Assembly (NCBI GenBank): GCA_022376925.1
Contig: JAIOJX010000031.1
Location: 142,928,854-142,992,853, forward strand
DNA: 64,000 nucleotides
Source of the DNA: Tragulus kanchil
Taxonomy: Eukaryota; Chordata; Mammalia; Artiodactyla; Tragulidae
Direction of reading: 5' to 3'
Positions within the stretch are counted from its first letter, which is position 1, and each line of letters opens with the position of its first letter. Position numbers and translations under genes: made by a program. The notes under the pieces were generated by a model. The model was not told the DNA's origin. It did no database searches and saw only the letters and a list, made by a program, of their open reading frames with translations. This document shows, piece by piece, positions 1,377 to 63,530 of the stretch.

Positions 1377-1732
1377 AATAAAAAATATATATATATTCAA
1401 AAACACACACACATATATAAAAAAGAGATGTCTGACCAGTACTCCTTCAAACTGTCTAGGTCATCTAAAATGAGAAGTCTGAGAAAGCATCACTATCATG
1501 AGGAACTTGAAGAGACACAAAAATTAAACGTAATGAAATACTGGATCTGAGAGGGGACATTAGGTACAACAAAGGAATTTATGGACTTTAGTTTATAATA
1601 ATGGGTTAACATTGGTTCAATAATTGTAACAAATTCATGAAAGATACCAACAACAGAAGTAAGCAGGTATAGGAATTCTCTGTACTATCTTCTCAAAGAA
1701 AATCCAAAAAAGAGGGAATATATGTATACATA

Positions 1733-1858
1733 TTGGAGAAGGGAATGGCAACCCACTTCAGCATACTTGCCTGGAGAATCCCATGGACAGAAGAGCCTGG
1801 AGGGCTACAGTCCACAGGATCACAAAGAGACACAACTGAAGTGACTTAGCACGCACAT
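1733..1858 (+). mobile_element. Bov-A/Bov-tA SINE tail, sense
   Basis: The sequence runs from ggagaagggaatggcaaccc through cctggagaatcccatggac to gtgacttagcacgcac, the Bov-A part of the composite ruminant SINE. It lacks the tRNA head. It is flanked by near-identical copies of atgtatacatat (about 1722 and 1860), consistent with a target-site duplication. Confidence 0.85.
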
Positions 1859-2809
1859 ATGTATACATATAGACTATTCACTTTGCTGTACTGTAAAAAC
1901 TAGCACAGCATTGTAAAGCAACTATATGTCAATAAAAAAAGAACTTCAAATTTTTTCTGTAAATTTAAAATTTCTAAAAAATAAAGGTGATATTTAAGAA
2001 AAGATACAAACACAGATGTGTGAATAATAAGATTTAGGACTTACTTCAGTGAACAACCTCAAAATGAAAAGTAAAACCAATCTAGTATCTAGTATTTCCA
2101 GTCTTTTTAGTACCTGAACTGCATCCCTGAAAGTCAATCCAGTTGCCTCCAAATCAATTAAGAAAATAGCTCTAGATGTTACGCAGTCCCACCTCCAGCT
2201 CAATCCTTGGGTGTGAAGGCAATTAAAACGTGAGGGTTTTTCCTCCTTGTGAATAGTAATTGCATGGACCTGCATCTCATATTACAGATTTCTGCTACTG
2301 AGCAAACCTATTCATTATTCAGCTCCTTCACAAATACTTATCGACACCTTTGTGTTACAGGAACTATTCTGGGCAATAGACACCTAGCTGAAAATAAGAG
2401 AGGCAATCTCTCACGGACCTCACATTCTGGTGGTTGGGGGAGTAAGCAACAAGCCAGTCAATTAGTTTCCAGTCACTCCCACTAGTCAATGACACCAGAC
2501 CTTTTCAGATGCAACCTCCATCCACTTCCAAGCCTTCTTAATTTTCTATTCTATGATTCTGTTTCTTGGACTTAATGAATATGATCTTCTGCTCTATCTC
2601 TAGGCAGCTTGAGGAGAGAACATTTCTTCTGACAGCAAACTAAAGCAAAGTTGAATTCATAATTCAATTTCCTTATTTTTTTAGATGAAGAAAGTGAAGC
2701 TCGTGCCATTAGACAACCAACATAAAGGCCAACAGTCTCCAATTCAGAGTTCCTTATAGGATTCCCCCCTAAGTGCAAATTTGTTACATTTAGAATATGT
2801 ATACATATT

Positions 2810-2933
2810 GGAGAAGGGGATGGCAACCCACTTCAGCATACTTGCCTGGAGAATCCCATGGACAGAAGAGCCTGGAGGGCTACAGTCCACAGGATCACAA
2901 AGAGACACAACTGAAGTGACTTAGCACGCACAT
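2810..2933 (+). mobile_element. Bov-A/Bov-tA SINE tail, second copy
   Basis: Duplicate of the element at 1733-1858, carried in copy B of duplication 1. It is not an independent insertion: its flanks are the same too. Confidence 0.85.
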
Positions 2934-3458
2934 ATGTATACATATAGACTATTCACTTTGCTGTACTGTAAAAACTAGCACAGCATTGTAAAGCAACTAT
3001 ATGTCAATAAAAAAAGAACTTCAAATTTTTCCTGTAAATTTAAAATTTCTAAAAAATAAAGGTGATATTTAAGAAAAGATACAAACACAGATGTGTGAAT
3101 AATAAGATTTAGGACTTACTTCAGTGAACAACCTCAAAATGAAAAGTAAAACCAATCTAGTATCTAGTATTTCCAGTCTTTTTAGTACCTGAACTGCATC
3201 CCTGAAAGTCAATCCAGTTGCCTCCAAATCAATTAAGAAAATAGCTCTAGATGTTACGCAGTCCCACCTCCAGCTCAATCCTTGGGTGTGAAGGCAATTA
3301 AAACGTGAGGGTTTTTCCTCCTTGTGAATAGTAATTGCATGGACCTGCATCTCATATTACAGATTTCTGCTACTGAGCAAACCTATTCATTATTCAGCTC
3401 CTTCACAAATACTTATCGACACCTTTGTGTTACAGGAACTATTCTGGGCAATAGACAC

Positions 3459-5678
3459 CTAGCTGAAAATAAGAGAGGCAATCTCTCACGGACCTCACAT
3501 TCTGGTGGTTGGGGGAGTAAGCAACAAGCCAGTCAATTAGTTTCCAGTCACTCCCACTAGTCAATGACACCAGACCTTTTCAGATGCAACCTCCATCCAC
3601 TTCCAAGCCTTCTTAATTTTCTATTCTATGATTCTGTTTCTTGGACTTAATGAATATGATCTTCTGCTCTATCTCTAGGCAGCTTGAGGAGAGAACATTT
3701 CTTCTGACAGCAAACTAACGCAAAGTTGAATTCATAATTCAATTTCCTTATTTTTTTAGATGAAGAAAGTGAAGCTCGGTGCCATTAGACAACCAACATA
3801 GCCAGGAAATGGGACCCTAAAACTAACAGTCTCCAATTCAGAGTTCCTTATAGGATTCCCAGAGCACCCACTATAATGCTGCAAAATCTACGGAGTCTTG
3901 AAAAGGTTTCCTCACTCTGATATTCTATATAAATATCCAGATATTCTGTCTCTAAAAACCTCCTGGGAAACATATCAGCTCTACCTACACATTCAAGTAC
4001 TGTGCAATTGACACCCCAGAGAAATCTGATTCTTTTCTGCCTGTTAGCAAAGTGGTGAGGACTCCGCCAGTGAACAAAGGATCAAAACGAGACAGAAAAT
4101 GTGCAAGTTGTGAAAGAAGCATCTTGGGTTTTTTTTCTTTAAAATATTGTGACATCGTACCCATGGCAGACGTTATTTTCCCTATGATTGCCAGTAATCT
4201 AATTATTTCAGCGTGTTTTACAGCAGCAAGTAAATGCAGCACCTAACGAGAAGCAACGCGGTGACACACTCAGCAAAATATTACCCAGTGATGCTTTAAT
4301 CAATTAGAACATTGACGGCTGGTAAAGTTGGCAGGGCCCTTAAACCTCTGGCCTCCTGGTCCCTGTTAATACCTGATGATATTTCATCTGAGAATCTCAT
4401 TTGAGTTTGTCAGTAATTAAAATGCATGAAACTCAGTCCACTGTTAACCCCAGGTCTACCCTTCTGGATCCCAAATCTCTTATGAAAAGCTCTTCACCTC
4501 AACAAAACACCAATGGCTGTCTTGGCTATTTAGATGTATACGGATTTGGCAATATACAGAAGAGGTATACCTAGCTGAAAATAAGAGAGGCAATCTCTCA
4601 CGGACCTCACATTCTGGTGGTTGGGGGAGTAAGCAACAAGCCAGTCAATTAGTTTCCAGTCACTCCCACTAGTCAATGACACCAGACCTTTTCAGATGCA
4701 ACCTCCATCCACTTCCAAGCCTTCTTAATTTTCTATTCTATGATTCTGTTTCTTGGACTTAATGAATATGATCTTCTGCTCTATCTCTAGGCAGCTTGAG
4801 GAGAGAACATTTCTTCTGACAGCAAACTAAAGCAAAGTTGAATTCATAATTCAATTTCCTTATTTTTTTAGATGAAGAAAGTGAAGCTCGGTGCCATTAG
4901 ACAACCAACATAGCCAGGAAATGGGACCCTAAAACTAACAGTCTCCAATTCAGAGTTCCTTATAGGATTCCCAGAGCACCCACTATAATGCTGTAAAATC
5001 TACGGAGTCTTGAAAAGGTTTCCTCACTCTGATATTCTATATAAATATCCAGATATTCTGTCTCTAAAAACCTCCTGGGAAACATATCAGCTCTACCTAC
5101 ACATTCAAGTACTGTGCAATTGACACCCCAGAGAAATCTGATTCTTTTCTGCCTGTTAGCAAAGTGGTGAGGACTCCGCCAGTGAACAAAGGATCAAAAC
5201 AAGACAGAAAATGTGCAAGTTGTGAAAGAAGCATCTTGGGTTTTTTCTTTAAAATATTGTGACATCGTACCCATGGCAGACGTTATTTTCCCTATGATTG
5301 CCAGTAATCTAATTATTTCAGCGTGTTTTACAGCAGCAAGTAAATGCAGCACCTAACGAGAAGCAACGCGGTGACACACTCAGCAAAATATTACCCAGTG
5401 ATGCTTTAATCAATTAGAACATTGACGGCTGGTAAAGTTGGCAGGGCCCTTAAACCTCTGGCCTCCTGGTCCCTGTTAATACCTGATGATATTTCATCTG
5501 AGAATCTCATTTGAGTTTGTCAGTAATTAAAATGCATGAAACTCAGTCCACTGTTAACCCCAGGTCTACCCTTCTGGATCCCAAATCTCTTATGAAAAGC
5601 TCTTCACCTCAACAAAACACCAATGGCTGTCTTGGCTATTTAGATGTATACGGATTTGGCAATATACAGAAGAGGTAT
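3459..5678. repeat. Tandem direct duplication 2, period ~1.11 kb
   Basis: Copy A is about 3459-4568 and copy B about 4571-5678. The junction reads agaggtat followed by acctagctgaaaataag. Copies differ by rare substitutions and a T-run length (eight T at ~4131, six at ~5241). Because duplication 1 overlaps it, the block at 3461-3840 also occurs at 2386-2760, so it is present three times. Confidence 0.94.
4140..4420. promoter_or_regulatory. Candidate conserved non-coding element
   Basis: The stretch is free of recognisable repeats and has a composition typical of developmental enhancers: ccagtaatctaattatttca and caattagaacattga are homeodomain-like motifs, with mixed GC and AT blocks. Several short frames cross it on both strands, none recognisable. 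Conservation is inferred from appearance only. A duplicate lies at about 5251-5530. Confidence 0.3.
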
Positions 5679-6125: not shown

Positions 6126-6254
6126 GGCCTCCCTTCCTCCACTCTGTTGGTTAAGAGGAGAACCTGTCATAAATCTGGTAACACTTGAGATGATCCACAT
6201 CTATGCTATGTGTTCCAGCCTGAGGCCTTATGATGAAAATAAAGCTGCCGCCTC

Positions 6255-6500
6255 CCTTCCCACTTGCCACCAGATTGCTGAGTGGTGGTGTTCAGCACAC
6301 TTTTCCTGAGGCACTTATTGCATGAGTGATATCCATGATGGAGCCCATAAATTTATACGACAAATCGAGGAAATGCTTTCTCACAAAGCCTTAAGAGGCA
6401 ATATTAATTAAATATGTCTTTTCACAAGGGATCATATAATATCTACTGCTGAGGTAATTAAGAATGAAGACATAAACTCATTAGATGTATACCAGAAAGA
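6255..6500. promoter_or_regulatory. Candidate conserved non-coding element
   Basis: Repeat-free, AT-rich DNA with homeodomain-like cores (gcaatattaattaaatatg, gaggtaattaagaatg). No coding frame is convincing. Its duplicate is at about 7371-7616. Function is inferred only from composition and motifs. Confidence 0.25.
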
Positions 6501-6796
6501 TGAAAATGCTCAGAAATTATAGACTGTTCATATACTACCCCCTCAGCCATATAGAGAAAGTCATGTGCCAGAGAGCTGAATGAGAATAAAAATTAAGTAC
6601 GTGTTTCTTTTTTCTTTGTGCAAATTCATTAACTAGCCAACTCAGGAAGTCCTCTAAGAAAGCCATTTCTTTTTTTTTTCTAATTAGATGAGTAGGTCTG
6701 ACGTTTCTGTTTCTCATCCAATCTTCACAAGATACTTCAATAGGACCTTCATGAAGTATGGTATCTAAATGGTCATTACAAGTCTGAAAACATGCC

Positions 6797-7130
6797 CCCC
6801 TTTTTTTTTAATTAAAGGATAATAGCTTTACAGAGTTGTATTGTTTACTGCCAAATATCAGCCTGTATTGGTCACAACTATACATACATTCCTTCCCTCC
6901 TGAAGTTTCCTCGAGACTCCCTCTCCATCTCACCTCTCTAGATTGTTAGAGAGCCCCTATTTGAATTCCCTTAGTCTTAAAGCAGATGCCCATTGCTCTT
7001 GCATATGGTAAAGTAAGTTTCCATGTTACTCTTTCCACATCTCACTCCCCCCTCCCCACAATGTCCGTAAGTCTGTTCTCTATGTCTGTTTCTCCATTGC
7101 TGCTGTGCATATACATTCATCGGTACCATC
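6797..7130 (-). mobile_element. L1 3'-end fragment, antisense
   Basis: The segment begins with a T-run (complement of the poly(A) tail) and continues with antisense ruminant L1 3' sequence, for example gtctgttctctatgtctg and cattcatcggtaccatc. It is truncated and non-coding, and ends where the old LTR-like repeat begins. Confidence 0.7.
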
Positions 7131-7238
7131 AACTTAGGATGTGGTTTTACTGGAGTAGGAGTGGCCCTAAATCCATAAGGACTGGGTCCTTACCAGAGAA
7201 CGAGAGACAGGGAGACGGGAAGAAGGCCATGGGAAGGG
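7130..7238 (-). mobile_element. Old LTR-like repeat, antisense, first partial copy
   Basis: The motifs gtggccctaaatccataagg, ggactgggtccttacc and gagagacagggagacgggaag match the complement orientation of a common ancient mammalian repeat whose other end reads tattagttccctaatactgctgtaaca (compare 53056). This copy is cut by the junction of duplication 3. Confidence 0.5.
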
Positions 7239-7911
7239 CCCCTCCTTCCCCTCCACTCTGTTTTGGTTAAGAGGAGAACCTGTCATAAATCTGGTAACAC
7301 TTGAGATGATCCACATCTATGCTATGTGTTCCAGCCTGAGGCCTTATGATGAAAATAAAGCTGCCGCCTCCCTTCCCACTTGCCACCAGATTGCTGAGTG
7401 GTGGTGTTCAGCACACTTTTCCTGAGGCACTTATTGCATGAGTGATATCCATGATGGAGCCCATAAATTTATACGACAAATCGAGGAAATGCTTCCTCAC
7501 AAAGCCTTAAGAGGCAATATTAATTAAATATGTCTTTTCACAAGGGATCATATAATATCTACTGCTGAGGTAATTAAGAATGAAGACATAAACTCATTAG
7601 ATGTATACCAGAAAGATGAAAATGCTCAGAAATTATAGACTGTTCATATACTACCCCCTCAGCCATACAGAGAAAGTCATGTGCCAGAGAGCTGAATGAG
7701 AATAAAAATTAAGTACGTGTTTCTTTTTTCTTTGTGCAAATTCATTAACTAGCCAACTCAGGAAGTCCTCTAAGAAAGCCATTTCTTTTTTTTTTTAATT
7801 AGATGAGTAGGTCTGACGTTTCTGTTTCTCATCCAATCTTCACAAGATACTTCAATAGGACCTTCATGAAGTATGGTATCTAAATGGTCATTACAAGTCT
7901 GAAAACATGCC

Positions 7912-8245
7912 CCCCTTTTTTTTTAATTAAAGGATAATAGCTTTACAGAGTTGTATTGTTTACTGCCAAATATCAGCCTGTATTGGTCACAACTATACAT
8001 ACATTCCTTCCCTCCTGAAGTTTCCTCGAGACTCCCTCTCCATCTCACCTCTCTAGATTGTTAGAGAGCCCCTATTTGAATTCCCTTAGTCTTAAAGCAG
8101 ATGCCCATTGCTCTTGCATATGGTAAAGTAAGTTTCCATGTTACTCTTTCCACACATCTCACTCCCTTCCCCCTCCCCACAATGTCCGTAAGTCTGTTCT
8201 CTATGTCTGTTTCTCCATTGCTGCTGTGCATATACATTCATCGGT
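7912..8245 (-). mobile_element. L1 3'-end fragment, antisense, second copy
   Basis: Duplicate of 6797-7130, produced by tandem duplication 3. It differs by a small pyrimidine-run expansion near 8160-8175. Confidence 0.7.
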
Positions 8246-9300
8246 ACCATCAACTTAGGATGTGGTTTTACTGGAGTAGGAGTGGCCCTAAATCCATAAG
8301 GACTGGGTCCTTACCAGAGAACGAGAGACAGGGAGACGGGAAGAAGGCCATGGGAAGGCTGAGAAAGACACTGGAGTGATGCTATCACAAACCAAGGGAC
8401 AGCTGGGGCTACCAGGAGCTGAAAGAGGCAAAAATGGGTCCTTTCCTGGGAGACCCCTTGCACTGTCGGTGGAAAATGGTTTGGAGAGTCCTTAAAAAGC
8501 TAGGAATATATCTACCATATGACCCAGCAACCCCACTACTGTGTATGTACCCTGAGAAAACCATGATTTAAAAGGATACACATACCCCAGTATTCACTGC
8601 AGCACTATTTACAATAGCCAGGACATGGAAGTAACCTAGACGTCCACTGACAGATAAAGGATAAAGAAGTTGTGGTACACACATACAAAGAAATATTACT
8701 CAGTAATAAAAAGGAACGAATTTGAGTTGGTGAAACTGAGGCCCAGAGCCTGTTATACAGCATGAAGTTAAGTTAGAAAGAGAAAAATAAATATTGTATA
8801 CTAGCGTCTATATATGGAATCTAGAAAAAGGGTACTGATTAATCTATTTACTGGGCAGGAATAGAGACAGAGACACAGAAAATGGACTTGTGGACAGAGC
8901 AGGGTGGGAAGAAGAGAGCGGGACAAATTGAGAGGGTAGCTTAGAAATGCATACATTATCATGTGTAAAACAGATAGCTAGTGGGAAGTCAGCATATGAC
9001 ACAGGAAGCTGAGCCTCGTGGTCTGTGACAGCCTAGGGAGGGTGGGATGGGAGGGTGGAAGGGAGGCTCTAGAAAGAGGGGCTAACTCACATGGTTGTAT
9101 GGCAGAAAACCAAGACAATACTGTAAAGCAATTATCATCCAATTTAAGACAATGTTTTAATGGGCCTAGAGGTTTCCGTGAGAACATGGACCTTGATCTT
9201 AGACTTCTAGCGGCAATAACAGGAAAATAACAAATTCATGATTTTTTTTAGACATTCAGTTTGTAGTACTTTATTACAGCAGTCCTATATAATAAACTCA
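8246..9300 (-). mobile_element. Old LTR-like repeat split by an L1
   Basis: The left part (8246-8456: gtggccctaaatccataag, gctatcacaaaccaaggg, gctaccaggagctgaaagagg) and the right part (9164-9300: ggaccttgatcttagacttc, tattacagcagtcc) form one ancient repeat in antisense orientation. It is interrupted by the sense L1 at 8457-9163. The family name is not certain. Confidence 0.5.
8457..9163 (+). mobile_element. L1 3' end, sense, 5'-truncated
   Basis: The order of motifs is that of a ruminant L1 3' end: ccatatgacccagcaacccc, ttcactgcagcactattta, atattactcagtaataaaaa, then the 3'UTR with gaggggtgggatggg-like sequence and gtaaagcaattatcatcc. The ORF2 portion has stops. It is inserted in the old LTR-like repeat. 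Confidence 0.85.
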
Positions 9301-9542
9301 CTAAATTGCTGCGTATATACATTCATCGGTACCATCAACTTAGGATGTGGTTTTACTGGAGTAGGAGTGGCCCTAAATCCATAAGGACTGGGTCCTTACC
9401 AGAGAACGAGAGACAGGGAGACGGGAAGAAGGCCATGGGAAGGCTGAGAAAGACACTGGAGTGATGCTATCACAAACCAAGGGACAGCTGGGGCTACCAG
9501 GAGCTGAAAGAGGCAAAAATGGGTCCTTTCCTGGGAGACCCC

Positions 9543-10248
9543 TTGCACTGTCGGTGGAAAATGGTTTGGAGAGTCCTTAAAAAGCTAGGAATATATCTAC
9601 CATATGACCCAGCAACCCCACTACTGTGTATGTACCCTGAGAAAACCATGATTTAAAAGGATACACATACCCCAGTATTCACTGCAGCACTATTTACAAT
9701 AGCCAGGACATGGAAGTAACCTAGACGTCCACTGACAGATAAAGGATAAAGAAGTTGTGGTACACACATACAAAGAAATATTACTCAGTAATAAAAAGGA
9801 ACGAATTTGAGTTGGTGAAACTGAGGCCCAGAGCCTGTTATACAGCATGAAGTTAAGTTAGAAAGAGAAAAATAAATATTGTATACTAGCGTCTATATAT
9901 GGAATCTAGAAAAAGGGTACTGATTAATCTATTTACTGGGCAGGAATAGAGACAGAGACACAGAAAATGGACTTGTGGACAGAGCAGGGTGGGAAGAAGA
10001 GAGCGGGACAAATTGAGAGGGTAGCTTAGAAATGCATACATTATCATGTGTAAAACAGATAGCTAGTGGGAAGTCAGCATATGACACAGGAAGCTGAGCC
10101 TCGTGGTCTGTGACAGCCTAGGGAGGGTGGGATGGGAGGGTGGAAGGGAGGCTCTAGAAAGAGGGGCTAACTCACATGGTTGTATGGCAGAAAACCAAGA
10201 CAATACTGTAAAGCAATTATCATCCAATTTAAGACAATGTTTTAATGG
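9543..10248 (+). mobile_element. L1 3' end, second copy
   Basis: Duplicate of 8457-9163, carried by tandem duplication 4. It shows no sign of independent insertion. Confidence 0.85.
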
Positions 10249-10659
10249 GCCTAGAGGTTTCCGTGAGAACATGGACCTTGATCTTAGACTTCTAGCGGCA
10301 ATAACAGGAAAATAACAAATTCATGATTTTTTTTAGCCATTCAGTTTGTAGTACTTTATTACAGCAGTCCTATATAATAAACTCACTAAATTAAGCTAGA
10401 AAGGTAACTGAAAATAAATTCAAAGGAAGGGTAAGCGAAGAATAAAACAAACAAGTAACAAAATAATAATAAAGTTACTGGTAATGAATAAGGAATGAAC
10501 AATCAGACAAGAGGAACAGAAACAATAATAAAAAAGCTGAATTTGTTAGGGAGGGGATACAACTATAAAAACAACTTATAAACTAAGTAAGAAAAGAGAA
10601 AAGTCACTCAACAATATTAGGGATAAAAATCTATCAAACTGAAAAAAAAAAAAACTACG

Positions 10660-12740: not shown

Positions 12741-12828
12741 ATGTACATATTTTATATATTATATGTTACATATTATGTATTATATATATTATATATATAT
12801 ACACTATATATTATATATAACATACATC

Positions 12829-13097
12829 TTTTTTAAATTTTGGCCTCTTTCATTGGTCCTTCACTTATTTATTTTCATCCAGCTTAATTCTTTGGCCTGT
12901 ATGGGCCTCCCATCACAGTGGCCTCTCTTGTTGCAGAGCACTAGCTCTGGATGCATGGGCTCTGGAGTGCTGGCTCGTAATTGGACACACTGGTCCAGCC
13001 GCTTCGAGGCACATGGGATTTTCCGGGTCAGGGATCGAACCGGCACCCCTTGTACTGCAAGGCAGACTTTTTTCCCATTGGACCACCAGGGAAGCCC
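12829..13097 (-). mobile_element. CHR-type tRNA SINE, antisense, in AT array
   Basis: It is a reverse-complement tRNA-derived SINE: T-rich tail, ggcctgtatgggcctccc, ccagccgcttcgaggcac, cagggatcgaaccggcaccc (B-box complement) and the head complement ggaccaccagggaagccc. It is flanked by a 13-base target-site duplication, tataacatacatc at 12816 and tataacatatatc at 13098, with one mismatch. Confidence 0.9.
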
Positions 13098-13110
13098 TAT
13101 AACATATATC

Positions 13111-13575
13111 ATTAAACAAATAAATGTAGAAAGGACAGATTTTCCTTATGGAGGATTTCAATTACTAATTTATACTGATATATATTATATATCATTTATT
13201 ATGTGTTATGTAATATATAAGTACATATTATATAATATATAGTATGTAATATATATTAGTATTTAATATATAAAATATATATTTGTATATAATATAATGT
13301 ATAATATATATAATATACTATATCTGTAATAAATTAATATATTAATATATATTAACATATAATACCTAATATGTAATAGTAATATATTAATATATAACAT
13401 GTATAACATGTTATAATATATCATATATATCACTATTATATATGATATATTATATCACATACATAATATATATTATATATTACAAATTATATTATACTAT
13501 ATATATATTATTATATATAATATATATTTATATATATATTATATATGCTTTTTCCATGTATATATATATTGTAAC
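13111..13575. repeat. AT-rich array, right part
   Basis: Almost pure A/T simple sequence (atatattaatatat, tataacatgtta and similar) continues the array interrupted by the SINE. Many short inverted repeats could form cruciforms. Its duplicate is at about 14212-14673. Confidence 0.9.
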
Positions 13576-13849
13576 AACTCTGGATACTGGTGCCCTGTCT
13601 CTTGAGACTTCTTATTGTTGTCTGTTAATTTTGTTAGTGAATGGCTGGACTATTTTAAATCTATTCCTCACCAATGTGCCCCTTGGTCTGTAGCCTTTGA
13701 TGATGTTCTTCTGGAGTCATGGCTTTGGGTTTGCCCACAGTCACCCTGGGATGACAGTGGTCTGAGCAAGACTCCTTCTGACTGTATCTTTCCATGATCA
13801 CACCCAGGTATCAGGCTCCATTTATCACCAGACAAACGCTGTGCTGGGT
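13576..13849. other. Unique DNA after the AT array
   Basis: Mixed-composition DNA (actctggatactggtgccc to gacaaacgctgtgctgggtc). No family was recognised. Short open frames on both strands recur in the duplicate at 14675-14949, but this repeats the same DNA and is not conservation. Confidence 0.4.
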
Positions 13850-13929
13850 CTTTTTTTTTTTTTTTTTTGGCCACTTCTATTGGTCTTTCATATATATAAA
13901 AACACTATATATTATATATAACATACATC

Positions 13930-14198
13930 TTTTTTAAATTTTGGCCTCTTTCATTGGTCCTTCACTTATTTATTTTCATCCAGCTTAATTCTTTGGCCTG
14001 TATGGGCCTCCCATCACAGTGGCCTCTCTTGTTGCAGAGCACTAGCTCTGGATGCATGGGCTCTGGAGTGCTGGCTCGTAATTGGACACACTGGTCCAGC
14101 CGCTTCGAGGCACATGGGATTTTCCGGGTCAGGGATCGAACCGGCACCCCTTGTACTGCAAGGCAGACTTTTTTCCCATTGGACCACCAGGGAAGCCC
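13930..14198 (-). mobile_element. CHR-type tRNA SINE, antisense, second copy
   Basis: Duplicate of 12829-13097 with the same flanking target-site duplication, made by tandem duplication 6. Confidence 0.9.
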
Positions 14199-14949
14199 TA
14201 TAACATATATCATTAAACAAATAAATGTAGAAAGGACAGATTTTCCTTATGGAGGATTTCAATTACTAATGTATACTGATATATATTATATATCATTTAT
14301 TATGTGTTATGTAATATATAATTACATATTATATAATATATAGTATGTAATATATATTAGTATTTAATATATAAAATATATATTTGTATATAATATAATG
14401 TATAATATATATAATATACTATATCTGTAATAAATTAATATATTAATATATATTAACATATAATACCTAATATGTAATAGTAATATATTAATATATAACA
14501 TGTATAACATGTTATAATATATCATATATATCACTATTATATATGATATATTATATCACATACATAATATATATTATATATTACAAATTATATTATACTA
14601 TATATATTATTATATATAATATATATTTATATATATATTATATATGTTTTTTCCATGTATATATATATTGTAACAACTCTGGATACTGGTGCCCTGTCTC
14701 TTGAGACTTCTTATTGTTGTCTGTTAATTTTGTTAGTGAATGGCTGGACTATTTTAAATCTATTCCTCACCAATGTGCCCCTTGGTCTGTAGCCTTTGAT
14801 GATGTTCTTCTGGAGTCATGGCTTTGGGTTTGCCCACAGTCACCCTGGGATGACAATGGTCTGAGCAAGACTCCTTCTGACTGTATCTTTCCATGATCAC
14901 ACCCAGGTATCAGGCTCCATTTATCACCAGACAAACGCTGTGCTGGGTC

Positions 14950-16080: not shown

Positions 16081-16082
16081 TT

Positions 16083-19268: not shown

Positions 19269-19327
19269 AGAGTTACCCATAGAAGAAAGATTTACTTTTA
19301 TCAGATTGTCTCACAAGACAGCAACAA

Positions 19328-50869: not shown

Positions 50870-51700
50870 AAAGACTGACATTCTCTGTAAGAAAATTAAA
50901 TAGTTACCACGATTAATTACATCCACTTGAGTCAGCCTCTGCCAAGGGGGCTTCAAGTGCTAGGCTCAGGAGTTGATTGTCAGAGGTTCTTAGCCCAGAA
51001 TATAACAGGGCAAATGGCAAAATGGGGAGCCAAGATAACCCTGACCTTTTCAGTCACAGTTGTTTTTCTTTTAAGTAGTAGAAATTGAAATTGGAGATAC
51101 AGTCATTCATTTAACAACAACAACAACAACAACAAAGTAAGGAGAGGGGTGACGGTGACCAGGCAGTCCCGATTTAGGTAGGTCCCTTTGGCCAGGCACT
51201 TAAAACTTTTATTATCAACAGCTTCATACAGTCTTTCCTAACTTTAATGGCCATATCAAGAGTTGATCTGCCCAGTGTTCTTTTTCTTTCTTCTGAAAAG
51301 AAATTCTCCACTTGACCTGAGAAACTCCTCATCCTGTACTCCATGTAATTCTGATGGGGCAGCTATTACTACAACCTGTCCCAACCCACAGGTGTTCACA
51401 CATGCCCATACTACATGACTCCCACGGTTGAAAGATTGGTCAAGGGAATTAGCATGTGACCCTCAACCACTCAATCAGAATACTTTGCATGGTTGTCCTG
51501 AAAACTTAGGAAGAAGAACATTCTCCCTACTCAATAAGGACTCGATTTTTTCTAAGGTTGCTGGCAGCCATCTTTCTACATGAAGTAAGACAGTAAGATT
51601 AACAGGGAGATGCTCAGAACAAGGAGATGGAAGTGGTGAAGCAGGAATAATAGCTAAATAAAGACTTGATGATATGTTTGAGCATCTCATGTTAAGACTG
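50870..51700. other. Unique DNA, nothing recognised
   Basis: Apart from the CAA run, no repeat family, RNA gene or coding frame was recognised. The duplicate is at about 51985-52811. Confidence 0.4.
51110..51135. repeat. (CAA)n microsatellite
   Basis: About seven CAA units (acaacaacaacaacaacaac). The duplicate is at about 52227-52252. Confidence 0.9.
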
Positions 51701-52811
51701 GAAGGTGTAACAGGCTGGCAGGTTTCATCTGATTAGGAAAAAAATTAATAGAGTCAGACACACACTTTGAGTCATTTTTAGATAATCAGCAGGTTCTCAC
51801 TGGCATTATTCTAGTCCAGCAAGACAGTGGAAGAAAATTCACTCGATGGCTCTCATGGTCAACTCCACAGGAACCAAATAAGCTATACTAATGTGCAGAA
51901 AAGATCAGGGCCGGGGTAGAAGGGGCAGAGAGCTAATTCCAGGTATGAAATGCTGCCAGAACTCAGGAGCATTGCTTCTTTAGGAAAGACTGACATTCTC
52001 TGTAAGAAAATTAAATAGTTACCACGATTAATTACATCCACTTGAGTCGGTCTCTGCCAAGGGGGCTTCAAGTGCTAGGCTCAGGAGTTGATTGTCAGAG
52101 GTTCTTAGCCCAGAATATAACAGGGCAAATGGCAAAATGGGGAGCCAAGATAACCCTGACCTTTTCAGTCACAGTTGTTTTTCTTTTAAGTAGTAGAAAT
52201 TGAAATTGGAGATACAGTCATTCATTTAACAACAACAACAACAACAACAAAGTAAGGAGAGGGGTGACGGTGACCAGGCAGTCCCGATTTAGGTAGGTCC
52301 CTTTGGCCAGGCACTTAAAACTTTTATTATCAACAGCTTCATACAGTCTTTCCTAACTTTAATGGCCATATCAAGAGTTGATCTGCCCAGTGTTCTTTTT
52401 CTTTCTTCTGAAAAGAAATCCTCCACTTGACCTGAGAAACTCCTCATCCTGTACTCCATGTAATTCTGATGGGGCAGCTATTACCACGACCTGTCCCAAC
52501 CCACAGGTGTTCACACATGCCCATACTACATGACTCCCACGGTTGAAAGATTGGTCAAGGGAATTAGCATGTGACCCTCAACCACTCAATCAGAATACTT
52601 TGCATGGTTGTCCTGAAAACTTAGGAAGAAGAACATTCTCCCTACTCAATAAGGACTCGATTTTTTCTAAGGTTGCTGGCAGCCATCTTTCTACATGAAG
52701 TAAGACAGTAAGATTAACAGGGAGATGCTCAGAACAAGGAGATGGAAGTGGTGAAGCAGGAATAATAGCTAAATAAAGACTTGATGATATGTTTGAGCAT
52801 CTCATGTTAAG

Positions 52812-53045
52812 CAGGCCTGAAATGCCACTAAAATCACTTTTTTTTGACTGAAGCTATTATTTGCTGGATTACCTGTCACAACTGAAAGAATAACCCCATC
52901 CTCAAAACTGGATTAGTTTATCTTCTCTGAAAATGGCACTAATTGCAACAGATTTTTAATTGTCCATTTGGATGAACAGTGAGCTCAAAGAGCACTTCCA
53001 GGGCACAGGAACCATTCATTTTTCATCAGCTCCTCAACCTATAAA
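52812..53045. promoter_or_regulatory. Candidate conserved non-coding element
   Basis: Repeat-free stretch with homeodomain-like cores (ggcactaattgcaacagatt, tttttaattgtccatttgg) and no coding frame. The duplicate is at about 53901-54134. Function is inferred from texture only. Confidence 0.3.
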
Positions 53046-53055
53046 TGATAATAGT

Positions 53056-53515
53056 CTGGTGTATTAGTTCCCTAATACTGCTGTAACAAACTGCCATAAA
53101 CTATGTACTAAACACAAAACACATTTATGGTTCTACAGTGCTGGAAGTCAGAAATCTAAAATAAGCCTCACTCAACTGAAGTCAAGGTGCTGGGAGGGCT
53201 GGTTCCTTTGGGAGTTTCTGAGAGGAGAATCTGTTTCCTTGCCTGCTTCAGCTCCTGGGGCCACCTGCCCTCCTTGGCTTGTGGCTGCTTCTTCAGAACA
53301 CTGCAGCCTCTTGCTTTTATTGTCACATCTCCTACTCCTCATTCTGTTCCTCCTGCCTTCCTTTTCTCAGAACACTTGAAAACCCTTAGGCCCATCTAGA
53401 TAACCCAGAATAATCTCCCCATCTCAAGATCTTTAACTTAACTACATCTGCAAAGTCCCATTTACCATGGAAGGTAACATCTTCACAGGTTCCAGGGGTT
53501 AGGATGCTGTAGAAA
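53056..53515 (+). mobile_element. Old LTR-like mammalian repeat
   Basis: It opens tgtattagttccctaatact and gctgtaacaaactgccataa, continues ggttctacagtgctggaagt, ctccttggcttgtggctgc and actacatctgcaaagtccca, and ends acaggttccaggggttagga. This is the sense orientation of the repeat seen antisense at 7130-9300. I do not assign a family name. The duplicate is at 54145-54600. Confidence 0.65.
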
Positions 53516-54662
53516 ACCTTTATGATGTATTTGCATCTTTCCAAAGCCCAGTGTTGTAAGACGATCTTCAGCAGGTTCCAGGGGTTAAAACGATTGTCTA
53601 ATTGGGGTTGACCTGCCAAAGTTCACACATGCCATCTTGATCTAAAAAAGGGAATTAGCATGTGACCCTCAACCACTCAATCAGAATACTTTGCATGGTT
53701 GTCCTGAAAACTTAGGAAGAAGAACATTCTCCTACTCAATAAGGACTCGATTTTTCTAAGGTTGCTGGCAGCCATCTTTCTACATGAAGTAAGACAGTAA
53801 GATTAACAGGGAGATGCTCAGAACAAGGAGATGGAAGTGGTGAAGCAGGAATAATAGCTAAATAAAGACTTGATGATATGTTTGAGCATCTCATGTTAAG
53901 CAGGCCTGAAATGCCACTAAAATCACTTTTTTTTGACTGAAGCTATTATTTGCTGGATTACCTGTCACAACTGAAAGAATAACCCCATCCTCAAAACTGG
54001 ATTAGTTTATCTTCTCTGAAAATGGCACTAATTGCAACAGATTTTTAATTGTCCATTTGGATGAACAGTGAGCTCAAAGAGCACTTCCAGGGCACAGGAA
54101 CCATTCATTTTTCATCAGCTCCTCAACCTATAAATGATAATAGTCTGGTGTATTAGTTCCCTAATACTGCTGTAACAAACTGCCATAAACTATGTACTAA
54201 ACACAAAACACATTTATGGTTCTACAGTGCTGGAAGTCAGAAATCTAAAATAAGCCTCACTCAACTGAAGTCAAGGTGCTGGGAGGGCTGGTTCCTTTGG
54301 GAGTTTCTGAGAGGAGAATCTGTTTCCTTGCCTGCTTCAGCTCCTGGGGCCACCTGCCCTCCTTGGCTTGTGGCTGCTTCTTCAGAACACTGCAGCCTCT
54401 TGCTTTTATTGTCACATCTCCTACTCCTCATTCTGTTCCTCCTGCCTTCCTTTTCTCAGAACACTTGAAAACCCTTAGGCCCATCTAGATAACCCAGAAT
54501 AATCTCCCCATCTCAAGATCTTTAACTTAACTACATCTGCAAAGTCCCATTTACCATGGAAGGTAACATCTTCACAGGTTCCAGGGGTTAGGATGCTGTA
54601 GAAAAAAAACCTTTATGATGTATTTGCATCTTTCCAAAGCCCAGTGTTGTAAGCATCTTCAG

Positions 54663-55260
54663 TATCAGGGAAGGCAGAAGATTACAGCTGAGGAGAGAGA
54701 AGAGTATAGCGACCAGGTCCTCACTGTGGGCTTGAGGAGGAGTCCTCACTGTCAATTCACAATGTCTGGACTCCTATCTGAAGTACTGCCTTGGTCCAGT
54801 GCACAGTGTTTGCAGTTCTCTACATCAATGTGAAAGTCTAGCATTTGACACAAAAGAAACTTAGGGACCCAAAGGGCCTTCCCCTTACATCATGCTCTTT
54901 CCTTGGATCTAAGCATAGATCTGGGCTTGCCCTTGAGGGAGGACATCAGATTCTAGTTACAGCTGAGGAAAATCTATGCTCTAGGGCAGTCATGGCACCT
55001 AGCTTTTGAGACGCTGGATGGGGCTAAAAAAACTGTTCCTGGATGTCTGACATAAGCTGATGCTGACTCATCCATCAAATTTTATGACTTAGAAACATGT
55101 TGTAATACATGTCAGTCAGCTCAGTTCACATTTCTTCCCCTACCTGATCTCCAGTTGTCTGTGAGGTTAAGAAAACTGAGACAAGATTCACCAATAGTAA
55201 GAGTATTATCCCTCATCTGCTGATGGCTGCTGTATGCCAGGTGCACTGTTACGTGTATGC
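54663..55260. other. Unique DNA, nothing recognised
   Basis: No repeat family or recognisable reading frame was seen. Confidence 0.4.
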
Positions 55261-55264
55261 GGTA

Positions 55265-55600
55265 GGTAGCTAGCTGCTGTAACAGATGAACTCCCACATC
55301 TCAGTGGCTTAACATAATAAAAACTCATTTTTTCACTCACAGAAAGTGCAGTCAGTAGTGGCAGAGTAGAGAGGCTGATTGTGCAACATGCAGCCAAACA
55401 GACACACCATCAATGGATCCTCTCATATGGATCCTTCATTCCCTAGAGCCTCAGAGACCTTCCCAACAGTTGGCCAGTGGAGAAAGATCACAGAGGTTTG
55501 CCTCTAAATAGGCTTTTATGGATCTGATACACATGACTTTCACTCACATTCCATTAGCTAGAACAAAGTCATTGGACTTCACTTCACTGCAGGGGAGGCT
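55265..55600. mobile_element. Ancient interspersed repeat, family uncertain
   Basis: gctgctgtaacagatgaact, cccacatctcagtggcttaa, cataataaaaactcattttt, cctagagcctcagagacctt and tcactcacattccattagct form a pattern I know from old mammalian repeats, but cannot name. The duplicate is at 56350-56685. Confidence 0.5.
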
Positions 55601-55699
55601 AGGAAACGTAGGCTGGCTTTGGGTCCATGAAGAGGGAAAAGCTATCAGGAAACACACAGGAATCTCTACCAACACAGGTTTTTCACAGAGTCTCAGCTG

Positions 55700-55834
55700 G
55701 GTATGAGGTGGGCACCATCTTCACCTCCATGATACAGTCGAGTTACAGAGAACTAAGGTACCTCCCTAAGTTCACACAGCCCAGACTGTACTCAGAATGC
55801 AAGTCGTTTTGACTTCTAAACTGACTCTCTTAAC
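55700..55834 (-). mobile_element. MIR SINE, antisense
   Basis: aggtgggcaccatcttcacc, cctccctaagttcacacagc, ccagactgtactcagaatgc and gactctcttaacca follow antisense MIR order. The duplicate is at 56785-56916, where the hAT element interrupts it. Confidence 0.65.
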
Positions 55835-56916
55835 CAGTGGTTCTCAAGTAGGGAGAACTTTGCCTGGTTGCTCCCCCCACCTCATTCCCTATAGAGATAT
55901 CTGGCAATGCCTCTAGACATTCTAAGTGTCCTGGCTAGGGGCATTGGGAGAGAGGCTTCAGTACGGACTAAAACTCATGCTCTTTCCTTGGATCTAAGCA
56001 TACATCCGGGCTTGCCCTTGGGGGAGGGCAGCAGACTGTAGGTACAGCTGGGGAAAAGCTATGCTCGAGGTCAGGCATGGCACCTAGCTTTTGAGACGCT
56101 GGATGGGGCTAAAAAAACTGTTCCTGGATGTCTGACATAAGCTGATGCTGACTCATCCATCAAATTTTATGACTTAGAAACATGTTGTAATACATGTCAG
56201 TCAGCTCAGTCCACATTTCTTCCCCTACCTGATCTCCAGTTGTCTGGGAGGTTAAGAAAACTGAGACAAGATTCACCAATAGTAAGAGTATTATCCCTCA
56301 TCTGCTGATGGCTGCTGTATGCCAGGTGCACTGTTACGTGTATGCGGTAGGTAGCTAGCTGCTGTAACAGATGAACTCCCACATCTCAGTGGCTTAACAT
56401 AATAAAAACTCATTTTTTCACTCACAGAAAGTGCAGTCAGTAGTGGCAGAGTAGAGAGGCTGATTGTGCAACATGCAGCCAAACAGACACACCATCAATG
56501 GATCCTCTCATATGGATCCTTCATTCCCTAGAGCCTCAGAGACCTTCCCAACAGTTGGCCAGTGGAGAAAGATCACAGAGGTTTGCCTCTAAATAGGCTT
56601 TTATGGATCTGATACACATGACTTTCACTCACATTCCATTAGCTAGAACAAAGTCATTGGACTTCACCTCACTGCAGGGGAGGCTAGGAAATGTAGGCTG
56701 GCTTTGGGTCCATGAAGAGGGAAAAGCTATCAGGAAACACACAGGAATCTCTAACACAGGTTTTTCACAGAGTCTCAGCTGGGTATGAGGTGGGCACCAT
56801 CTTCACCTCCATGATACAGTCGAGTTACAGAGAACTAAGGTACCTCCCTAAGTTCACACAGCCCAGACTATACTCAGAATGCAAGTCATTTTGACTTCTA
56901 AACTGACTCTCTTAAC

Positions 56917-57166
56917 CAGTGGTTCTCAAGTAGGGAGAACTTTGCCTGGTTGCTTCCCCCACCTCATTCCCTATAGAGATATCTGGCAATGCCTCTAGAC
57001 ATTCTAAGTGTCCTGGCTAGGGGCATTGGGAGAGAGGGGCTTGCAGTACGGACTCAGTGGGAAGAGGCCAAAGACGCTGCTACCCATCCTACAATGCACA
57101 GAAAAGCCTGCACAGCAAAAGGTCATCTGGTCAAAATGTCAGTAGTGCCCTGATTGAGAAACACTG
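56917..57166. mobile_element. Non-autonomous hAT DNA transposon
   Basis: The left terminal inverted repeat cagtggttctcaa (56917-56929) and the right one ttgagaaacactg (57154-57166) match except for one base. The flanking 8-base duplications ctcttaac (56909-56916) and ttcttaac (57167-57174) differ at one base; 8 bp is the hAT signature. Internal sequence includes tatctggcaatgcctctaga and catcctacaatgcacag. There is no transposase. A partial duplicate is at 55832-55970. Confidence 0.85.
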
Positions 57167-57534: not shown

Positions 57535-57865
57535 GAGCTGAGCTTACTTGCTCAGTCATGTCCAACTCTCTGCAATCCTATGGACTGGAGCCCACCAGGC
57601 TCCTCTGTGCATGGGGGTTCTCCAGGCAAGAACAGTGGAGTGGGTTGCCATGCCCTCCTCTATGGGATCTTTCCAACCCAGGCATTGAACCCTGGTCTCC
57701 CCTACTGTGGGTGGATTCTTTACCAACTGAGCCACCCTGGAAGCCCATGAATACAGGACTGGTTAGGCTACCCCTTCTCCAAAGGATCCTCCCAACTCAG
57801 GAATCAGTCCGGGATCTCCTGCACTGCAGGCGGATTATTTACCACCTGAGCTACCAGGGAAGCCC
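57535..57865 (-). mobile_element. Bov-tA composite SINE, antisense
   Basis: A Bov-A part and tRNA head (gctcagtcatgtccaactct, ggagtgggttgccatgccc, gagccaccctggaagccc) are followed by a second short unit (ctactccttctc-type ccccttctccaaaggatcc, gagctaccagggaagccc). The second unit is repeated at 58886-58993. Confidence 0.9.
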
Positions 57866-58337
57866 TCTTAACATTCTACAGTTACAAGGATGAGAGACCA
57901 GGCTCCAGAAGTTGCCCCACTAGAAAAGCTCCTGACACTGACATGAAACTGTTAAATGTAAGTGATACAGGGACTTTTTCCTCTAATGGAAAAAGCAAAG
58001 TGCCAAATTATTTAACTTATGATGGAAATTATTGCTCCAATAAAAATATATCCTTTGGAAATATGACTGCAAATAACCAGAGACACGAGCCAACTAGAAA
58101 GTCTGCTCCAACCAGAACAGCAAGGGGAAGTAGGGGGAGGGGTGCCAAATAAAAGCAGACAGATGATTTGTGTTATTAATCTTAGTTTGTTTATCACCTA
58201 ATCTTGCCTCATGAGCTGGAATGAACATTTATCCAAAGCCGTCTTGGCAAAAAGGTTGCTCTTCACAACTCTGAACGTATCTTGTGACAATACAGGTAAA
58301 GACCTGTGCTGTTTCTTGCATTAAGAGAAGTACTTTT

Positions 58338-58644
58338 GGACTTCCCTGGTGGTCCAGTGGGTAAGGACACCGCCTTGCAGTGCAGGGGGCGCCAGTTCGA
58401 TCCCTGGTGTGGGAAGATCCCATGTGCTGTGGAACAGCTAGACAGATGTGTCCAATTACCGAGCCGGAGCTCTGGAGCGCATGCGCCCAGAGCCGGTGCT
58501 CTGCGACAACAGAGGCCACTGCATGGGAGGCCCACGTGGGCCAAAGAACAAAGATGGATGCAAATAGATAAATGAAAGACCAATAAAAGCGGCCCGCCTG
58601 GCCCCTCCCCCTCCCCAACCCGCCCTCCACCCCACCCCCAAACA
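58338..58644 (+). mobile_element. CHR-type tRNA SINE with perfect target duplication
   Basis: It carries the head gacttccctggtggtcc, the B box agttcgatccctggtgtggg, the body gagcgcatgcgcccagagcc and a C-rich tail without a long poly(A). It is bounded by identical 15-base copies of aagagaagtactttt at 58323-58337 and 58645-58659. The duplicate is at 59465-59771 with the same flanks. Confidence 0.95.
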
Positions 58645-58744
58645 AAGAGAAGTACTTTTCTTCTCTGTGCAAAGCCCCAAAGCTTTTCCTCCAAGAATGA
58701 GGGAGACAGTCAAGTGGAACTTTGTAAAACTCTAGATCAAGAAA

Positions 58745-58866
58745 ACCAGTTTAAACTTTGGTCTCCACTTTCTAGCTGTGATCTTGGGAAAATTACTCTG
58801 AGTCATTTTTCTCACCTGTAAAATGGGGATAATGATGGTTTATATTTCACAGGGTAGTGAAGATTA
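58745..58866 (+). mobile_element. MIR SINE, left part
   Basis: ccactttctagctgtgatct, tgggaaaattactctgagtc and tctcacctgtaaaatgggga match MIR closely. The fuller copy is at 59872-60040. Confidence 0.85.
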
Positions 58867-59464
58867 GGAGAAACAAGATGATACAACTGGTTAGGCTACC
58901 CCTTCTCCAAAGGATCCTCCCAACTCAGGAATCAGTCCGGGATCTCCTGCACTGCAGGCGGATTATTTACCACCTGAGCTACCAGGAAGCCCTCTTAACA
59001 TTCTACAGTTACAAGGATGAGAGACCAGGCTCCAGAAGTTGCCCCACTAGAAAAGCTCCTGACACTGACATGAAACTGTTAAATGTAAGTGATACAGGGA
59101 CTTTTTCCTCTAATGGAAAAAGCAAAGTGCCAAATTATTTAACTTATGATGGAAATTATTGCTCCAATAAAAATATATCCTTTGGAAATATGACTGCAAA
59201 TAACCAGAGACACAAGCCAACTAGAAAGTCTGCTCCAACCAGAACAGCAAGGGGAAGTAGGGGGAGGGGTGCCAAATAAAAGCAGACAGATGATTTGTGT
59301 TATTAATCTTAGTTTGTTCATCACCTAATCTTGCCTCATGTGCTGGAATGAACATTTATCCAAAGCCGTCTTGGCAAAAAGGTTGCTCTTCACAACTCTG
59401 AATGTATCTTGTGACAATACAGGTAAAGACCTGTGCTGTTTCTTGCATTAAGAGAAGTACTTTT

Positions 59465-59771
59465 GGACTTCCCTGGTGGTCCAGTGGGTAAGGACACCGC
59501 CTTGCAGTGCAGGGGGCGCCAGTTCGATCCCTGGTGTGGGAAGATCCCATGTGCTGTGGAACAGCTAGACAGATGTGTCCAATTACCGAGCCGGAGCTCT
59601 GGAGCGCATGCGCCCAGAGCCGGTGCTCTGCGACAACAGAGGCCACTGCATGGGAGGCCCACGTGGGCCAAAGAACAAAGATGGATGCAAATAGATAAAT
59701 GAAAGACCAATAAAAGCGGCCCGCCTGGCCCCTCCCTCCCACCCTCCCTCCACCCCCACCCCCCCCAAACA
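59465..59771 (+). mobile_element. CHR-type tRNA SINE, second copy
   Basis: Duplicate of 58338-58644 with a different C-rich tract. Confidence 0.95.
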
Positions 59772-59871
59772 AAGAGAAGTACTTTTCTTCTCTGTGCAAA
59801 GCCCCAAAGCTTTTCCTCCAAGAATGAGGGAGACAGTCAAGTGGAACTTTGTAAAACTCTAGATCAAGAAA

Positions 59872-60045
59872 ACCAGTTTAAACTTTGGTCTCCACTTTCT
59901 AGCTGTGATCTTGGGAAAATTACTCTGAGTCATTTTTCTCACCTGTAAAATGGGGATAATGATGGTTTATATTTCACAGGGTAGTGAAGATTAAGGGAGA
60001 TCATCATGCAAAGTGACTGGCTCAGAGCCTGGCACACAGGATTAG
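59872..60045 (+). mobile_element. MIR SINE, fuller copy
   Basis: As at 58745, continuing with gggtagtgaagattaaggga and ctggctcagagcctggcaca, the usual MIR 3' half. Confidence 0.85.
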
Positions 60046-61000: not shown

Positions 61001-61628
61001 ATGTATATAAGGAACACTGGTTGCTATAACACTGCCAGTAAGTTGTGTCCAAGGATTACTGTAAATACACAAAGCAACAGCCTCATCTCGGAGTCATCAG
61101 AGCCGGAATGGCCCTGACTATACAGTCAAGGTGGCCATCAGGAGTGATGACCCTGCTCCCAGCAAGATATTATGTGAATGGTCTCTCCATGTTAATATCC
61201 CTGGCTTTCTTCTCCCAGCTGGGTGTGCACATGTAGACCCCTTGCTGAGCATCCATGGTAGTTCATGAGTGACTCTCTTGCGGTGTGTCAGTCCCTCCAT
61301 GGGTCTCTGCAGGTTTGTCTCAGCAACATGGATCCATCTGGGAGAAGCTCTGAGCATGTAGACTGCCTGCAAGGGGCCTAATGGATGGTCCAAATCCTGA
61401 CTGCAGCAGACATGCCTAACTGGCCCTTCATGCACTGATGGAGGTGATCATTCCAACTACCATTTTACCCTCTCTCTAGTAACTGCAGGTGTTGTAAAGC
61501 TAAAGACGACTTCTCAGACTCCCCAGGGTTCAGGAGTCATTTGGCTTTTGGCCTCTAAGAGGCACAAGACTTGGAAGGCAGCAATGAGGCAGAGCCCAGG
61601 CCTCTGCTGCTACTTACAGTAAGAGCTG

Positions 61629-62066
61629 TCATAACAAAACTTGATTTTTATTCAGCAAGGTCAGGAAAGGTCCAGGAAGAGACTCAATAGCTTCATAGGT
61701 GCCAAGAGGCAGGATGCAGGGCACTATTTTGCTGGTGTGGATCCAGAATGGCACAGTTCTGGAGCCAACGGTCCTGACGACAAACGTCCTGATCCTTGGC
61801 TTGCAGGAAGGTGGCATGACCAGTATGACAGGGCAGCTTCTCAGTTCTCTACTCCCTGAGCTTAACAGAGTCACTCCCAATGTGGACCAATTCTGTATTG
61901 CTCTTGAAAGGGGTACATAGGCAGATTTGATAAACAGGCTAGCCTGTCTCAAGGACAAGGAGGAGAAGAGGAAGGACAAGGAGAAACAAAGGCAAAGATC
62001 TTCAATGGTGAAACTAAAAACTTCTAGTCTTATGTTAATCTGGGCATTTACAATAGAATGTCTCAC
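61629..62066 (-). pseudogene. Possible endogenous retrovirus pol remnant
   Basis: A 145-codon minus-strand frame contains, around residues 98-112, a Val-Gly...Phe-Trp-Ile-His-Thr-Ser-Lys stretch that resembles the C-terminal integrase region of gamma-type retroviruses. Only this short signature is visible. It may be chance. The copy at 62749-63000 carries the same motif. The nearby LTR-like signal is on the opposite strand, which weakens the call. Confidence 0.2.
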
Positions 62067-62074
62067 GTAGCCCT

Positions 62075-62312
62075 GAGGCCTGGAGATTGGGTAATCTCAG
62101 CTAATCTCACGTTAATGTTGTTGGTGTGGGCCTACAGGGCCTTTACAACCTTAAGATATTCTTTTGATATACTGTTTTTGTAACTGACTGAAAGATACAT
62201 ATTGTCATGCTTCAACTGGCAAAGGGGGATACTCTTCTATCCCCCCTCCAGTGTCTATGCTGAAAGCTCTTCCCTATCCTTTCTTACTTTAATAAACTTT
62301 TCAACTCATTGC
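62075..62312 (+). mobile_element. LTR-like segment, first partial copy
   Basis: U3/R-like sequence ending cttactttaataaacttttc (AATAAA at 62291-62296), cut by the junction of duplication 25. The fuller copy is at 63190-63530. Confidence 0.45.
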
Positions 62313-63189
62313 TAATATCCCTGGCTTTCTTCTCCCAGCTGGGTGTGCACATGTAGACCCCTTGCTGAGCATCCATGGTAGTTCATGAGTGACTCTCTTG
62401 CGGTGTGTCAGTCCCTCCATGGGTCTCTGCAGGTTTGTCTCAGCAACATGGATCCATCTGGGAGAAGCTCTGAGCATGCAGACTGCCTGCAAGGGGCCTA
62501 ATGGACTGTCCAAATCCTGACTGCAGTAGACATGCCTAACTGGCCCTTCATGCACTGATGGAGGTGATCATTCCAACTACCATTTTACCCTCTCTCTAGT
62601 AACTGCAGGTGTTGTAAAGCTAAAGACGACTTCTCAGACTCCCCAGGGTTCAGGAGTCATTTGGGTTTTGGCCTCTAAGAGGCACAAGACTTGGAAGGCA
62701 GCAATGAGGCAGAGCCCAGGCCTCTGCTGCTACTTACAGGAAGAGCTGTCATAACAAAACTTGATTTTTATTCAGCAAGGTCAGGAAAGGTCCAGGAAGA
62801 GACTCAATAGCTTCATAGGTGCCAAGAGGCAGGATGCAGGGCACTATTTTGCTGGTGTGGATCCAGAATGGCACAGTTCTGGAGCCAACGGTCCTGACGA
62901 CAAACGACCTGATCCTTGGCTTGCAGGAAGGTGGCATGACCAGTATGACAGGGAAGCTCCTCAGTTCTCTACTCCCTGAGCTTAACAGAGCCACTCCCAA
63001 TGTGGACCAATTCTGTATTGCTCTTGAAAGGGGTACATAGGCAGATCTGATAAAGAGGCTAGCCTATCTCAAGGACAAGGAGGAGAAGAGGAAGGACAAG
63101 GAGAAACAAAGGCAAAGATCTTCAATGGTGAAACTAAAAACTTCTAGTCTTATGTTAATCTGTGCATTTACATTAGAATGTCTCACCTA

Positions 63190-63530
63190 GCCCTGAGGCC
63201 TGGAGATTGTGCTAGCTAATCTCATGTTAATGTTGTTGGTGTGGGCCTACAGGGCCTTTACAACCTTAAGATATTCTTTTGATATACTGTTTTTGTAACT
63301 GACTGAAAGATACATATTGTCATGCTTCAACTGGCAAAGGGGGATACTCTTCTATCCCGCCTCCAGTGTCTATGCTGAAAGCTCTTCCCTATCCTTTCTT
63401 ACTTTAATAAACTTTTCACTACATGAAACTCTGAGTGACCATTGCTGAGTCTTCTGATCCCAATGTGAACTCTCCTCCAACAGAGATTAAGAATCCAGCA
63501 CAGTTCACATTAACTTACCATCGTCTATCA
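63190..63530 (+). mobile_element. Endogenous retrovirus LTR-like segment
   Basis: A polyadenylation signal within actttaataaacttttcac (AATAAA at 63406-63411) is followed by actctgagtgaccattgctg and gaactctcctccaacagag. These resemble the R-U5 part of bovine-type ERV LTRs (ctctgagtgatcaag, cctctcctcc). The U3 start is not defined. No intact retroviral gene is present. Confidence 0.5.

Follow-up and report, generated by a model that had tools for sequence, protein, structure and literature searches.

Structure of the window

The 64,000-nt window, by which we mean the whole stretch of DNA analyzed, contains no N and is occupied almost from end to end by a single series of 24 head-to-tail direct duplications. 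Self-comparison places the start of the first copy at 1720 and the end of the last second copy at 63418 (Table 1). A first-pass annotation had described 24 direct duplications of about 1.1 kb tiling the window between 1721 and 63419, with a jump back of 1.04-1.18 kb every 1.8-4.7 kb, and our comparison reproduces that description closely. The offset between copies is 1,043-1,176 bp (mean 1,110, CV 2.8%, n=24); measured on the 5' side it spans 1,044-1,176 (mean 1,110.6, SD 31.8) and on the 3' side 1,043-1,173. Junctions delimit 23 complete blocks, whose lengths run from 1,788 to 4,706 bp with a CV of 31%, so the proposal that the duplicated length is nearly constant while block length varies freely also holds. 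Together the offsets sum to 26,654 bp, or 41.6% of the window, and subtracting them leaves an underlying stretch of ~37.3 kb.

Table 1. The 24 overlaps, with positions counted from the first letter of the window
Overlap	Extent	First copy	Second copy	Strand	Identity	Remarks
1	1720..3860	1720-2766	2795-3860	.	97.94%	28 unaligned junction bases
2	3457..5678	3457-4568	4569-5678	.	99.55%	triple with overlap 1 (404 columns)
3	6136..8358	6136-7237	7250-8358	.	99.01%	
4	8217..10392	8217-9307	9305-10392	.	99.63%	triple with overlap 3
5	12790..14993	12790-13895	13891-14993	.	99.10%	partly AT-rich
6	15005..17158	15005-16085	16083-17158	.	99.44%	
7	18497..20621	18497-19557	19569-20621	.	98.68%	
8	21273..23551	21273-22416	22413-23551	.	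99.30%	
9	23290..25600	23290-24445	24443-25600	.	99.74%	triple with overlap 8
10	25175..27395	25175-26271	26304-27395	.	99.09%	triple with overlap 9; 32-base junction tail matching right-block continuation
11	28167..30209	28167-29166	29211-30209	.	99.70%	
12	29943..32105	29943-31017	31031-32105	.	100%	identical over 1,075 bp; triple with overlap 11
13	32189..34451	32189-33306	33322-34451	.	98.50%	
14	34176..36476	34176-35340	35330-36476	.	97.94%	triple with overlap 13; right-block start degraded
15	36734..38951	36734-37846	37842-38951	.	97.77%	both ends gapped
16	39438..41616	39438-40523	40532-41616	.	99.54%	
17	44079..46388	44079-45230	45238-46388	.	98.18%	20 mismatches
18	46242..48436	46242-47348	47347-48436	.	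95.42%	20 mismatches; triple with overlap 17
19	48197..50506	48197-49333	49373-50506	.	99.03%	triple with overlap 18
20	50601..52811	50601-51696	51706-52811	.	98.46%	
21	52557..54662	52557-53571	53648-54662	.	99.21%	triple with overlap 20; 76 unaligned junction bases
22	54890..57054	54890-55969	55975-57054	.	97.60%	20 mismatches
23	57751..60000	57751-58871	58881-60000	.	98.40%	
24	61193..63418	61193-62303	62313-63418	.	97.84%	19 mismatches

Could such a series arise by chance? Repeated 60-mers account for 18,453 of the 63,941 in the window and repeated 24-mers number 22,708, while none of either length appeared in any of 20 first-order Markov resamplings. The absence of repeated 60-mers from the resamplings excludes a chance origin. 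The copies of a pair are 95.42-100% identical; the 26,454 aligned columns hold 150 mismatches and 74 gaps, and only one pair, that of overlap 12, is identical throughout. All 24 pairs share the same orientation: the second copy follows the first in direct repeat, separated from it by 0-76 unaligned bases. The self-comparison found no inverted repeats of at least 150 bp and at least 88% identity in the window. Nine triples occur where neighboring overlaps lie close together: one stretch then closes the left block, recurs in the interior of the middle block and opens the right block.

The duplicated stretches are of mixed content, as had been claimed: their GC ranges from 30.6 to 47.6%, and overlap length shows no correlation with it (r -0.04). 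Translations of some stretches carry a pattern that resembles a ruminant SINE. No Rfam family matched the window at the gathering threshold, and no Pfam family was found in the 10 ORFs searched of the 32 of at least 110 aa.

The self-comparison gave 34 rows, of which 24 form the series and ten were left out. Seven of the latter align the two outer copies of a triple with each other, and two represent a diverged repeat (18933-19266 and 20001-20333, each against 57187-57522, 88-90%). The last is an AT-rich tandem of period 460 at 11482-12416, rejected as a member of the series because of its length and because it lies within a single block; its two 460-bp copies match at 99% and could reflect either a genuine local repeat or a further consensus fault. 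Away from the overlaps, 43640-43778 holds two tandem copies of a 69-bp unit that match at 84% and have the appearance of an ordinary old repeat. Within overlap 19, a TG-rich microsatellite spans 76 bases in one copy (48765-48840) and 72 in the other (49941-50012), a length difference expected of separate consensus calls.

Position of the differences between copies

The copies differ most at the ends of blocks. In the outer 25 nt there are 34.0 differences/kb at the right-block start and 30.3/kb at the left-block end, compared with 2.5-9.2/kb in the twelve classes more than 100 nt from the end. Counted over all 24 overlaps, gaps occur at 9.8/kb in the terminal 100 nt and at 1.2/kb inside (Wilcoxon p 1e-4), and all differences taken together at 16.9/kb and 6.5/kb, respectively (p 0.004). 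Overlap limits were taken from local alignments, which are trimmed where copies disagree, a bias that works against this enrichment. The differences are also directional. Up to 150 nt from block ends, 43 of 51 gaps (27/32 and 16/19) shorten the copy on the junction side, and among the 22 of 48 junction ends with a net length difference it is the shorter in 19 (p 4e-4).

The triples allow the altered copy to be identified. Polarizing them by majority, merging adjoining gap columns into one event and leaving three-state columns uncounted, we find 13 private events at the left-block end, one in the middle-block interior and 28 at the right-block start across the nine triples. Eight triples are informative, the ninth being without any difference, and the sole middle-block event sits in the first triple, itself divided 5 : 1 : 0. 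Equal sharing of the 42 private events has a probability of 9e-7 if they are independent; since events cluster, the true figure is weaker.

Consensus errors at block ends, in the copy that touches the junction, are what would be expected if the blocks had been computed separately and then joined. Real duplication of chromosomal DNA would have no reason to protect the copy inside a block, and so the end pattern counts against it. True tandem duplication should leave differences without regard to block ends, and those observed are densest at the ends.

Origin of the duplications

Are these duplications present in the animal or only in its assembly? They are almost certainly an assembly artefact, real as text and not as biological duplication. 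The first-pass annotation had favored overlapping contigs or reads concatenated untrimmed. This reading is supported by the density of differences at block ends and the degradation of the junction-side copy, because pieces computed independently predict degraded junction-side ends and real duplication does not. The window would then consist of 25 consensus pieces in a row, each computed separately (23 of them complete and two cut by the window ends) and all derived from one ordinary stretch of ~37 kb. Successive pieces would have ~1.1 kb in common and would have been written end to end with the shared part left unmerged. Tiling, near-constant overlap, variable block length and degradation towards piece ends are all observed. 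By this account we infer that the two copies of each pair are the same locus, and an assembler would have been the maker of the pieces.

The opposing reading, real serial tandem duplication, supposes a cellular process that repeatedly copied segments of ~1.1 kb along the chromosome. Some observations are in keeping with it: the copies are directly adjacent, they abut without unaligned bases at nine of the 24 junctions, and the differences in their interiors are enriched for CpG-type changes, as in natural mutation. Against it stand the concentration of differences at block ends, in the junction-touching copy, and the single private event among 42 in the middle copy of triples. Moreover, every pair has the same orientation and is 95.4-100% identical, and the duplicated length stays constant while GC spans 30.6-47.6%. 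We also detected no older, diverged member of the series. Of the direct pairs reaching 150 bp, 155 in all, 125 fell below 95% identity; the AT-rich region at 11.5-14.7 kb holds all of the 12 longest among them. We know of no process that produces serial duplication of fixed length in this way. The reading would require recent, repeated, fixed-length tandem duplication spread over no less than 37 kb of mammalian chromosome, with an additional reason for the differences at block ends, and we regard both the process and this history as exceedingly improbable.

The interior mismatches fit the artefact less neatly. More than 150 nt from the ends, 79 of 109 mismatches are transitions, and 26 of these 79 lie in CpG-type context (counted as CpG, TpG or CpA) against a background of 16.4% (p 2e-4). 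They look like natural variants, not random errors. Overlaps 17, 18, 22 and 24 (44079-48436, 54890-57054 and 61193-63418) carry 79 of the 150 mismatches, 19-20 each, and the other 20 overlaps carry 0-7 each. We read the interior mismatches as the result of two haplotypes, or two repeat copies, feeding neighboring blocks; mutation after duplication would look alike.

At the 15 junctions where the matched copies do not abut, 5-76 bases lie between them. Nine of these tails, of at least 11 bases, were compared with the flanks: that of junction 10 matches the right-block continuation well above random, that of junction 11 stands at the random 99% limit, and the remaining seven match neither flank above that limit. 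The longest tail, the 76 bases at 53572-53647 in the junction of overlap 21, belongs to the last group, with no match to the expected upstream or downstream flank. Poor consensus at block ends is a plausible cause of the tails.

Could the overlaps have been introduced by the pipeline behind the window, stitching it from overlapping slices? Apart from the overlaps themselves nothing speaks for this. Slices of one sequence should agree at 100% identity, and only one of the 24 pairs does so; the differences, furthermore, are densest at slice ends. Of all the explanations considered we find this the least credible.

Possible source of the overlapping pieces

What kind of program writes such pieces? 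An agreement of 95.4-100% between copies marks the pieces as consensus blocks and not raw noisy reads. The near-constancy of the overlap suggests a unit of fixed length common to neighboring blocks, not overlaps that had only to pass some minimum. The latter possibility, in which corrected reads or short contigs were chained untrimmed through overlaps just above a minimum of ~1 kb, would give the same tiling and the same degradation of ends, and it takes an appreciable minority share of our confidence in an artefact. Raw noisy reads are excluded from it by the agreement between copies. It should also skew overlap lengths towards 1,000, and it is disfavored because the smallest overlap stands well off that value: if the excess over 1,000 were exponential with its mean as observed, the smallest overlap would lie this far out with p 8e-5. 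The minimum of 1,000 is assumed, and the argument is weaker under another minimum.

A second variant, chunked polishing, would cut a finished contig into chunks of fixed overlap, polish them and rejoin them untrimmed. Both a fixed overlap and degraded chunk ends would follow. Chunks should, however, be of near-constant length, and the blocks run from 1,788 to 4,706 bp (CV 31%). As the shared unit is near-constant while the blocks vary, processing in fixed chunks is out as far as this pattern goes, and we hold the variant to be very unlikely.

A fixed node held in common by adjacent graph edges is the best fit. Given an artefact, we put the chance that the source program belongs to the wtdbg/wtdbg2 family of long-read assemblers at about even; the verdict of artefact is independent of this identification. 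In wtdbg2 the default node is 1,024 read bases, or four bins of 256. Neighboring graph edges share a node of fixed length, a consensus is made for each edge, and adjoining edges are normally merged over the node. In the present window the merge over the shared node may have failed or been skipped. A fixed shared unit together with variable blocks, as wtdbg2 would give, is what we observe (CV 2.8% against 31%). The mean overlap of 1,110 is 8% longer than 1,024. For PacBio reads a node of 1,024 bases would become shorter, not longer, than 1,024 after consensus, which counts against the simple 1,024-base reading for such data.

Compared with a limit of at most 256 bases for the overlap of neighboring nodes, four of the nine node-to-node overlaps fall within and five above; with the limit scaled by 8% to ~277, seven fall within and two (404 and 426 bp) above. 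A search for periodicity of block length near 256-310 bp gave no significant result (best period 280, R 0.39, equaled by 80.5% of random sets); with 23 blocks and a read-to-consensus ratio that varies, the test has little power. An overlap constant in homopolymer-compressed space was considered and rejected, the CV being 3.5% compared with 2.8% uncompressed. Passages of PMC9915519 describe wtdbg2 as producing a layout in which contigs consist of overlapping reads, with the consensus left to a separate program, wtpoa-cns; node or bin sizes are not given in those passages or in those of PMC7483855. Passages of two deer papers describe the use of wtdbg programs with PacBio reads for sika deer (PMC10372904) and mule deer (PMC9650288).

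Relation to known assembly errors

The Vertebrate Genomes Project, in passages of its reports, gives the name homotype false duplication to false duplication arising from overlapping sequence at contig boundaries (PMC8081667; PMC9516828). The present window would be alike in that one locus is written twice in tandem because the overlapping ends of neighboring pieces were left unmerged. The lower consensus quality at piece ends to be expected of such duplication is found here as well, in the end enrichment and in the 13 : 1 : 28 division of private events. The copies described in those passages are often about read length, lie at contig boundaries and become tandem through scaffolding (PMC8081667; PMC9516828), whereas here the copies keep a constant length of 1.1 kb and return at intervals of 1.8-4.7 kb within uninterrupted sequence that contains no N. 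The present case is an extreme, serial form of homotype false duplication, and we make no claim that the serial form is unreported.

Two further cases bear comparison. In a hummingbird assembly, homotype duplication made by FALCON is attributed to a software fault, likewise the probable cause here; that case concerns another program, and the passages of the source do not describe a regular series of short overlaps (PMC8081667). False segmental duplication derived from divergent haplotypes, as treated by Kelley and Salzberg 2010 (PMC2864568), resembles the present case in that false copies mimic recent segmental duplication, and the four overlaps that hold 79 of the 150 mismatches (17, 18, 22 and 24) are like a meeting of haplotypes. 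Unlike in that case, the other 20 overlaps here carry 0-7 mismatches each and all are of set length, and for these reasons haplotype divergence is unlikely to be the main cause.

Implications

Nothing in the content examined suggests a function for the duplications. They have no biological significance, and their value is that of a warning. A constant overlap, variable blocks, differences at junction-side ends and clean middle copies in triples constitute a signature by which assemblies could be screened for this fault without recourse to reads. With ~42% of the window spurious, analyses of repeats, gene counts, exon duplication and copy number that used this record would be wrong.
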